Positions 23,465-24,399 of a stretch of DNA of 64,000 nucleotides are shown in pieces. The number at the start of each line of letters is the position of its first letter. The stretch's first letter is position 1. Both the position numbers and the translations under genes were made by a program. Below the pieces are notes generated by a model. The model was not told where the DNA came from, searched no databases, and was given only the letters and a program-made list of their open reading frames with translations. Source of the stretch: Geobacillus thermocatenulatus (GTDB lineage: Bacteria; Bacillota; Bacilli; Bacillales; Anoxybacillaceae). The stretch spans positions 1,613,164 to 1,677,163 of the forward strand of contig NZ_NEWK01000002.1 of assembly GCF_002217655.1 (NCBI RefSeq), in the 5' to 3' direction.

Positions 23465-23576
23465 TTTGACGAAACACCTATCACAATCTTTCATGCCCCT
23501 TCCTCTGCCAGCCCATTCCAAAGAAGCTGAATGCGTCGGGGCAACTCGAAGCGTATTCGGCGAAGTGACGGCTCGT
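23465..23576. repeat. structured repeat copy A in the tRNA cluster
   Basis: About 112 bp inserted between tRNA-Gly and a partial copy of it. Core arms TGCCCC (23494-23499) and GGGGCA (23538-23543) enclose conserved AGAGGAA and GACGCAT blocks (minus sense) and an inner hairpin with TTC...GAA. Related to copies B and C. A ~35-bp direct duplication of tRNA-Gly sequence flanks it. Confidence 0.75.
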
Positions 23577-23607
23577 GGCTGAGGTTTTACCACTAAACTA
23601 CACCCGC
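23577..23607 (-). pseudogene. 5' fragment of tRNA-Gly (duplicate)
   Basis: Repeats the first 31 nt of the neighbouring tRNA-Gly gene (GCGGGTGTAGTTTAGTGG to the anticodon stem) and its upstream ATTAT, then stops. It cannot fold as a tRNA. Confidence 0.9.
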
Positions 23608-23628
23608 ATAATATTTAGTTTAACAAAA

Positions 23629-23702
23629 TCGGGAAGACAGGATTTGAACCTGCGACCCCATGGTCCCAAACCATGTGCTCTACCAAGCTGAGCTACTTCC
23701 CG
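23629..23702 (-). tRNA. tRNA-Pro (TGG)
   Basis: Acceptor CGGGAAG/CTTCCCG, anticodon TGG in ATGGTTTGGGACCAT, T-loop GGTTCAAATCC; no encoded CCA. Confidence 0.95.
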
Positions 23703-23706
23703 ATGA

Positions 23707-23783
23707 TGGCGCGCTCGAGAGGATTCGAACCCCTAACCTTCTGATCCGTAGTCAGATGCTCTATCCAATTGAGCTACGAGCGC
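23707..23783 (-). tRNA. tRNA-Arg (ACG)
   Basis: Acceptor GCGCTCG/CGAGCGC, anticodon ACG in CTGACTACGGATCAG, encoded CCA. The A34 would be read as inosine after deamination. Confidence 0.95.
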
Positions 23784-23859
23784 AATACATTATTGCACTA
23801 TAAAGACGAATTTCATTTTAGCGACTTGCTGCGCTGGTGTCAATAGTTTATTTAAAAAA

Positions 23860-23942
23860 TGCGGTCGAGAGGACTTGAACCTCCACGGGGTCGCCCCCAC
23901 TAGGCCCTCAACCTAGCGCGTCTGCCATTCCGCCACGACCGC
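23860..23942 (-). tRNA. tRNA-Leu (GAG)
   Basis: Long-variable-arm tRNA with acceptor GCGGTCG/CGACCGC and anticodon GAG in CTAGGTTGAGGGCCTAG; no encoded CCA. Confidence 0.94.
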
Positions 23943-23957
23943 ATATGGACTAATCAG

Positions 23958-24039
23958 TGCGGGTGGAGGGACTTGAACCCCCACGCCGTGAGGCGCCAGA
24001 TCCTAAGTCTGGTGCGTCTGCCAATTCCGCCACACCCGC
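23958..24039 (-). tRNA. tRNA-Leu (TAA)
   Basis: Long-variable-arm tRNA, acceptor GCGGGTG/CACCCGC, anticodon TAA in CCAGACTTAGGATCTGG; no encoded CCA. Confidence 0.94.
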
Positions 24040-24044
24040 TAATA

Positions 24045-24120
24045 TGGTGAGCCATGGAGGACTCGAACCTCCGACCCTCTGATTAAAAGTCAGATGCTCT
24101 ACCTACTGAGCTAATGGCTC
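24045..24120 (-). tRNA. tRNA-Lys (TTT)
   Basis: Acceptor GAGCCAT/ATGGCTC, anticodon TTT in CTGACTTTTAATCAG, encoded CCA. Its first 16-17 nt are repeated twice upstream, next to repeat copies B and C. Confidence 0.95.
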
Positions 24121-24138
24121 ATGGTTGGGTATACACTC

Positions 24139-24240
24139 TAGGTACTACCTAGCTCTACCTGCCCCTTCCTCTGCCAGTCTGTTCAAGGAAGCGAGATGCG
24201 TCGGGGCAACTCGCAGTGAACTCGAAGATGCAACGCTCGT
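24139..24240. repeat. structured repeat copy B in the tRNA cluster
   Basis: Core arms TGCCCC (24160-24165) and GGGGCA (24203-24208), with AGAGGAA, GACGCAT and a TTC..GAA inner hairpin on the minus strand. It separates tRNA-Lys from a partial duplicate (24242-24257) that keeps the tRNA 5' end plus GGTTGGGTATACACTC. Confidence 0.75.
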
Positions 24241-24274
24241 TACTGAGCGAATGGCTCATGGTTGGGTATACACT

Positions 24275-24366
24275 CACAGTGAACGATGTCCCTTCCTCTA
24301 CTAGCATATTCGAATATGCAGGATGCGTCGGGACAACTCGAAGCAAACTCGAAGATGTAACGCTCG
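24275..24366. repeat. structured repeat copy C in the tRNA cluster
   Basis: Core arms TGTCCC (24287-24292) and GGGACA (24330-24335): both arms differ from copies A and B at the paired position, keeping the stem. The inner hairpin is a perfect GCATATTCGAATATGC palindrome. It ends at another tRNA-Lys 5' piece (24367-24383). Confidence 0.75.
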
Positions 24367-24399
24367 TTACTGAGCTAATGGCTATTTAACATATAAAAA

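Follow-up and report, generated by a model that had tools for sequence, protein, structure and literature searches.

A repeat of about 81 bp beside duplicated tRNA 5′ halves in Geobacillus thermocatenulatus looks like an undescribed small mobile element

Repeat units in the tRNA clusters of the home genome

The window, a stretch of 64,000 nucleotides of the Geobacillus thermocatenulatus genome, contains a tRNA cluster in which the original prediction had placed three copies of a structured repeat. All three copies were present on the minus strand, as were the tRNA genes and tRNA fragments around them; trimmed to the limits of the family they measured 83, 81 and 81 nt, and the repeat is called element E below. 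Copy A (23494..23576) was separated by a linker of 35 nt (23459..23493) from an intact tRNA-Gly(UCC) gene (23385..23458; ARAGORN, Rfam RF00005) and was flanked on its other side by a copy of nucleotides 1-31 of this tRNA (23577..23607), which belongs to the 40-nt repeat family D11 (98% identical). Copies C (24287..24367) and B (24160..24240) formed a two-unit array preceding an intact tRNA-Lys(UUU) gene (24045..24120; ARAGORN, Rfam). Read towards that gene, the array consisted of a partial tRNA-Lys of 16 of 17 nt (24368..24383), copy C, its linker (24258..24286), a second partial tRNA-Lys comprising nucleotides 1-17 with one mismatch (24241..24257), copy B and its linker (24121..24159); both partial tRNAs belong to repeat family D6. 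The linker of unit B starts with GGTAGAGC, the continuation of tRNA-Lys past the insertion site, and the same start was found at other Lys loci. The duplicated tRNA 5′ ends were confirmed, at 31 nt for Gly and 16-17 nt for Lys, as was the paired arm change from TGCCCC/GGGGCA to TGTCCC/GGGACA in copy C. The statement that each copy parts a real tRNA from its own 5′ copy held for A and B, but not for C, which is flanked by two partial tRNA-Lys sequences.

The rRNA operon adjoining the tRNA-Gly gene (20650-23300) looks broken: its 5S gene at 20656-20772 is followed by a reading frame judged by eye to be transposase-like (20807-21910) and then by one of 256 aa (22110-22880). The sequence at about 23157-23277 is presumably the truncated 5′ end of a 16S gene; a 16S match was not reported there by Rfam at an E-value of ≤0.01.

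Many further copies were found in the genome by DNA search, their genome-wide absence, together with an empty site pointing to a simple recent triplication without structure conservation, having been named beforehand as grounds for abandoning the original prediction. A covariance model, the search proposed at that time, was built from 48 copies and applied at an E-value of ≤0.01; with the best 150 of 1485 candidates scored, it detected at least 26 copies genome-wide, all 26 in tRNA clusters and on the tRNA strand, and many further copies were found in Geobacillus-type genomes. When nhmmer was applied to loci covering all 84 tRNA genes, a total that a second count also gave, 28 copies were obtained, every one of them in a run directly 5′ of a tRNA. 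Occupied were the genes for tRNA-Lys-UUU (4/4), Gly-UCC (2/2), Phe (2/2), Thr-UGU (2/2), Thr-CGU (2/2), Arg-UCU (1/1) and Asn (1/4), and two of the five Met-CAU genes, which are the only two of the initiator type (CGCGGGG) among the five; no gene of the remaining tRNA species had E directly upstream. With Met counted as one species, only two species were mixed, a result never matched when the 16 occupied genes were shuffled among the 84 (0/20,000). The runs start with the 5′ part of the cognate tRNA, which by eye was decayed for Arg and for one Phe.

Anatomy and distribution of the element

The consensus of the 48 copies is a repeat of about 81 nt, ACGAGC…CGAGTTG-YYYC-GACGCAT…AGAGGAA-GRRR-CA, with a first hairpin-like block after ACGAGC and a second block after GACGCAT. 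In these related copies the outer stem, helix 35-40/80-85, was paired in 99.0% of cells, and its pairs 37-83 and 39-81 showed changes in both partners in 19 and 20 rows out of 48, respectively; the inner helix was weaker (73.6% paired). The whole tested structure was paired in 87.5% of cells versus 83.4% (sd 0.8) in column shuffles, and in 35.9-49.6% when the partner was slid out of register by one to three columns. Two of five covariation measures were not above the column shuffles: 4 pairs had changes on both sides (3.9 in the shuffles), and 12 further pair types were counted (14.4 in the shuffles). RNAalifold kept just 7 pairs, and single copies folded no better than dinucleotide shuffles (12 folds, z −1.44 to +1.57). 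Since the outer stem covaries while single folds are at shuffle level, the outer stem is backed by covariation and a stable fold of the whole element is not supported. For the selection on an RNA or DNA structure proposed originally, the covarying outer arms speak in favour; the single-copy folds and the two covariation measures at shuffle level speak against a strong structure claim.

Only 5S and tRNA passed the gathering cut-off of Rfam 15 between positions 15000 and 35000 of the window. In six loci of the home genome, reading of the hits with E-values up to 10 revealed none over E, except that one sX4 hit overlapped it by 3 nt, and no known RNA family lay over E in five loci of relatives searched with Rfam. 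A description of E was not recognised in the open-licence literature either, although one may exist elsewhere; both results agree with the earlier statement that no named element with these features was known.

With strict filters, E was matched in 90 of 199 genomes and 52 of 97 genera of the order, the other 109 genomes being without a match. An exact-pattern scan of contigs, covering 84,980 species at one genome each, yielded at least 117 stretches with E, and the 80 titled stretches among the matches listed were all from Bacillaceae-type organisms by name. Three plasmid records, two from Anoxybacillus and one from Geobacillus, contained a match. The query matched 2145 phage records, of which the best 20 all cover query positions 271-358, the tRNA-Lys part. 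Five stretches were found in viral contigs, and the E copies printed for them adjoin tRNAs. Among genus-labelled copies, mean identity was 0.785 within a genus between different tRNA types (73 pairs) and 0.738 across genera at the same tRNA type (254 pairs).

Array size was variable. Across the genus, all 21 tRNA-Lys genes in seven genomes, including that of G. thermocatenulatus, carried one to six units, and the last E lay 28-40 nt upstream of the tRNA. In Parageobacillus one E immediately followed another (L064, same array as L038). Arrays of one to six units support the tandem expansion that had been suggested, which appears to act alongside insertion. Empty and occupied sites at the same tRNA loci, a comparison that had been recommended, were also found. 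A genome of the same family without any E match (G017) has the same tRNA order as the window, Asn-Ser-Glu-Asp-Gln-Lys-Leu-Leu-Arg-Pro-Gly, and E at neither of its two tRNA-Lys genes; its Gln-Lys and Pro-Gly spacers measure 10 and 12 nt, versus 279 and 169 nt in the window.

Insertion sites inside and outside tRNA genes

The fetched loci contained 221 regex matches; in 186 of these, E was preceded by a scored 5′ part of the tRNA that follows on the same strand. The 35 unscored matches were contig ends, decayed 5′ parts, non-tRNA copies and a few false matches; among them, no opposite-strand tRNA was closer than 912 nt. The 186 rows include one artefact (Ala, L070), and the site count rests on 182 of them, three odd rows and one other having been left out. 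E lay within 66 nt of the tRNA in 132 of the 186; the other 54 copies, at 118-587 nt, sit where earlier array units would lie. Antisense E was not found in 23 tRNA-Lys loci. Insertion points varied by tRNA type from after nucleotide 11 to after nucleotide 31, with at least six different points. Typically, E followed nucleotide 31 in Gly (in the anticodon loop), 17 or 26 in Lys, 14 in fMet, 17 in Asn, 24 in Thr and 27 in Arg. AG was present at −4 and −3 in 177 of the 182 tRNA copies, positions −2 and −1 being variable. The tRNA sequence often resumes right after E, with GGTAGAGC for Lys, GTC for fMet and CA for Thr, which speaks for clean insertion into the tRNA gene.

An exception to the rule of an intact downstream tRNA was found in Geobacillus zalihae (L087), where one E lies inside a tRNA-Arg whose 3′ half follows almost complete, and the intact tRNA-Arg nearest to the last E lies upstream. 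This split gene (L087:4300-4801) follows the intact tRNA-Arg and adjoins a reading frame that appears integrase-like by eye.

The linkers were compared with the cognate tRNA 3′ halves. Their origin as decayed 3′ halves was rejected, since the group means of 127 distinct linkers were at or below those of shuffles for most tRNA types; values above shuffles were obtained for Lys (7.5 vs 6.3), Thr-UGU (6.7 vs 6.2), Asp (5.3 vs 5.2) and Ala, which is represented by one linker (8.5 vs 6.8), and the Gly linkers as a group matched no better than shuffles. Judged by sequence, little of the linker beyond the first 0-8 nt appears to be tRNA remainder. The fMet and Gly linkers were each alike across genera by eye. 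In linkers of alkaliphiles (L048, L076, L088, L137 and L191), a motif like GCATCGTCCGTAAGCATCATGAA was seen by eye after E at tRNAs of different types, as though the element were followed by another conserved module.

E was also frequent outside tRNA genes. With the best 150 candidates scored per genome, at least 87 matches were obtained in Litchfieldia alkalitelluris, 115 or more in Evansella vedderi and 104 or more in E. clarkii. By reading of 20 stretches from four genomes (Litchfieldia, Evansella and Fictibacillus), E was located outside tRNAs in 12 and in a tRNA context in 7, while one had no regex match. The non-tRNA copies lay mostly within palindromic repeats, of which there were three or more kinds; one copy was in an ffh-rpsP spacer, as identified by reading of the ORFs. 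They have the same core and the same paired stem as the tRNA copies, in a group that also contains a false match and some tRNA copies that have decayed, and the Litchfieldia variant GACGGAT occurred in tRNA and non-tRNA copies alike. At least three palindromic repeat families were distinguished by eye in Litchfieldia and Evansella (L250-L262, L220-L249, L211 and L212). Rfam at an E-value of ≤1 in L250, L220, L212 and L219 reported only two hits, each in L220: tsr24 below its cut-off and, at the far end, a cobalamin riboswitch.

Two of the palindromic repeat families provided empty and occupied sites within the same Litchfieldia genome (L250 versus L251/L255; L220/L222 versus L221/L225). The empty site CCCACAGGA|GTCTCTTAAACC (L251) corresponded to the occupied site CCCACAGGA|E|GTTGCTTCGTAAACC (L250), and the empty site CTCCAGCG|CCTATCGGCCC (L221) to CTCCAGCG|E|GCTGGTTTTCGGCCC (L220). 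Both comparisons revealed an insertion of about 80 bp without target duplication; the right-hand junctions differ by a few bases, and the ends of E are not proven to the base. The insertion mechanism duplicating half a tRNA that had been proposed was upheld as to insertion, which is clean, but not as to duplication in that step, which was not seen at these repeats. As E stands in palindromic repeats without flanking duplication, the duplicated tRNA half would be more readily accounted for by a duplication or recombination event of its own.

Y1 transposases were examined as a possible mobilising activity. In 21 Y1 loci (six genomes searched, five with hits), E was not found at the ends of any locus, and repeat signatures near the Y1 gene were seen in 2 of the 21. 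The only Y1 locus with E (L278) has two copies in inverted orientation, roughly 1.2 kb away from the Y1 match; the pair stands in an E-rich genome and was not taken as a link. One genome with 29 E matches (G013) had no Y1 hit. Several genes for Y1-type transposases, their open frames some 180-280 aa long, were noted in three genomes (G063, G064 and G065); E is absent from their ends.

Origin of the element and comparison with known systems

The observations to be accounted for are the family, its contexts, the site motif, the empty and occupied sites, the variation in array size and the near all-or-none occupancy of tRNA species. With moderate confidence, we regard E as a non-autonomous mobile element of about 81 bp, found in Bacillaceae and close relatives, biased to tRNA 5′ halves and amplified by recombination. 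E would insert behind a short NAGNN motif, leaving the target unduplicated and strongly favouring a small set of tRNAs, at their 5′ halves, and other hairpin repeats. The resulting unit of tRNA 5′ part, E and linker would be bounded by direct repeats of the 5′ part, and unequal recombination between these could multiply the unit (one to six), transfer it among paralogous genes for one tRNA and keep the 5′ part fresh, leaving an intact tRNA downstream. Mobility, presumably driven in trans, explains the empty and occupied non-tRNA sites, the nesting and the somewhat closer likeness within genera; recombination between the duplicated 5′ parts, the probable amplifier, explains the arrays, the fresh 5′ parts and the spread within one tRNA species. 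Against mobility stands the lack of a mobilising gene tied to E, as tested with Y1 transposases. The likeness within genera is limited, and gene conversion alone could produce it; this reading has to assume a separate duplication that nearly always leaves an intact tRNA downstream. The full occupancy of seven tRNA species and the likeness of linkers across genera would be more regular than expected of neutral scars.

These regularities suit a different explanation, that E and its linker form a functional cis-acting RNA of tRNA operons, acting in processing, folding or feedback on the downstream tRNA and kept by selection, with the 5′ tRNA copy as part of the device. It would account for the occupation of seven tRNA species at each gene copy with only Asn mixed, for the invariable tRNA-Lys arrays with their narrow spacing and sense orientation, for the covarying outer stem with conserved internal-loop sequences and for the similar fMet and Gly linkers. 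We nevertheless consider it unlikely: the same core and stem occur in palindromic repeats and in the ffh-rpsP spacer, more than half of the 199 genomes of the order gave no match under strict filters, both tRNA-Lys genes of G017 lack E, several 5′ parts are decayed, and single copies lack a fold signal.

Distinctly less probable is that E moves as RNA, joining tRNA or hairpin transcripts at loops, being copied into DNA with the tRNA leader and 5′ half, and entering by homologous recombination. Duplication of the 5′ part and several leader bases in front of an intact gene is what a single crossover would yield, the targets are structured and not duplicated, and E was sense to the tRNA in the copies examined, although replication direction or selection could produce this orientation too. 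E is flanked by direct repeats of tRNA sequence that resemble attL and attR sites, and pairs of partial and complete tRNAs are described for prophages and ICEs in the part of PMC9897764 drawn on here. That E is a remnant or satellite of a tRNA-targeting integrative element is still very improbable, as its insertion point varies by tRNA type, 81 bp leaves no room for an integrase gene, and the empty sites in non-tRNA repeats indicate insertion without flanking duplication. A recent local triplication without any element, for which only the existence of tandem arrays speaks, is ruled out by the genome-wide copies, the matches throughout the order and the covariation.

Returning to E as a mobile element, its strongest form is tentative and rather doubtful: E might be the founder of a class of very small geneless elements that target structured RNA genes (the D and anticodon arms of tRNAs, hairpin repeats) and then spread to all copies of a tRNA species by drive-like recombination of the duplicated 5′ halves. 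If so, whole tRNA species of a genome sit behind element arrays. tRNA genes are usually seen as targets of large integrating elements, not of tiny structured repeats. Occupation of all genes of seven tRNA species in one genome, with intact tRNAs downstream, offers a natural test of insertion tolerance in essential RNA genes, and the arrays one of concerted evolution and of any change in tRNA supply. E is also a strong lead toward a mobilising enzyme, and until named it could confuse tRNA and RNA-seq annotation.

Non-autonomous repeats of the IS200/IS605 or REP type are short, contain hairpins, occur in many copies and are mobilised by Y1 transposases. E resembles them in size, hairpins, copy number, lack of target duplication and an adjoining short motif, but differs in its strong tRNA bias, in the absence of its ends from all Y1 loci searched and in a motif that is just AG plus two free bases. 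The bcr1 and stem-loop families, as far as PMC2267715 (Cozzuto et al. 2008) was available, are likewise intergenic structured repeats of similar size in Bacillaceae, but no tRNA association is described in that part, and bcr1 is confined to the B. cereus group according to a title cited there, whereas E spans many other Bacillaceae-type genera. The same part states that rRNA- and tRNA-related clusters were removed from the survey, which could have hidden the E family, and lists Bhal-1 of B. halodurans (74 bp, 36 copies). Because at least seven E matches were found in the H. halodurans genome (best 150 of 1486 candidates scored) against 36 copies, E is probably not Bhal-1; the two are set apart by copy number, not by sequence. 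Prophages and ICEs in tRNA genes share with E the partial and complete tRNA copies flanking the insertion (PMC9897764, in part); E differs in being 81 bp long and geneless, in duplicating the 5′ part and in using several tRNA points and non-tRNA repeats in place of an integrase and one attachment core. The group described in PMC3706591 is by its title a superfamily of DNA transposons, whereas E codes for nothing; what the two have in common, going by that title, is a specificity for multicopy small RNA genes.
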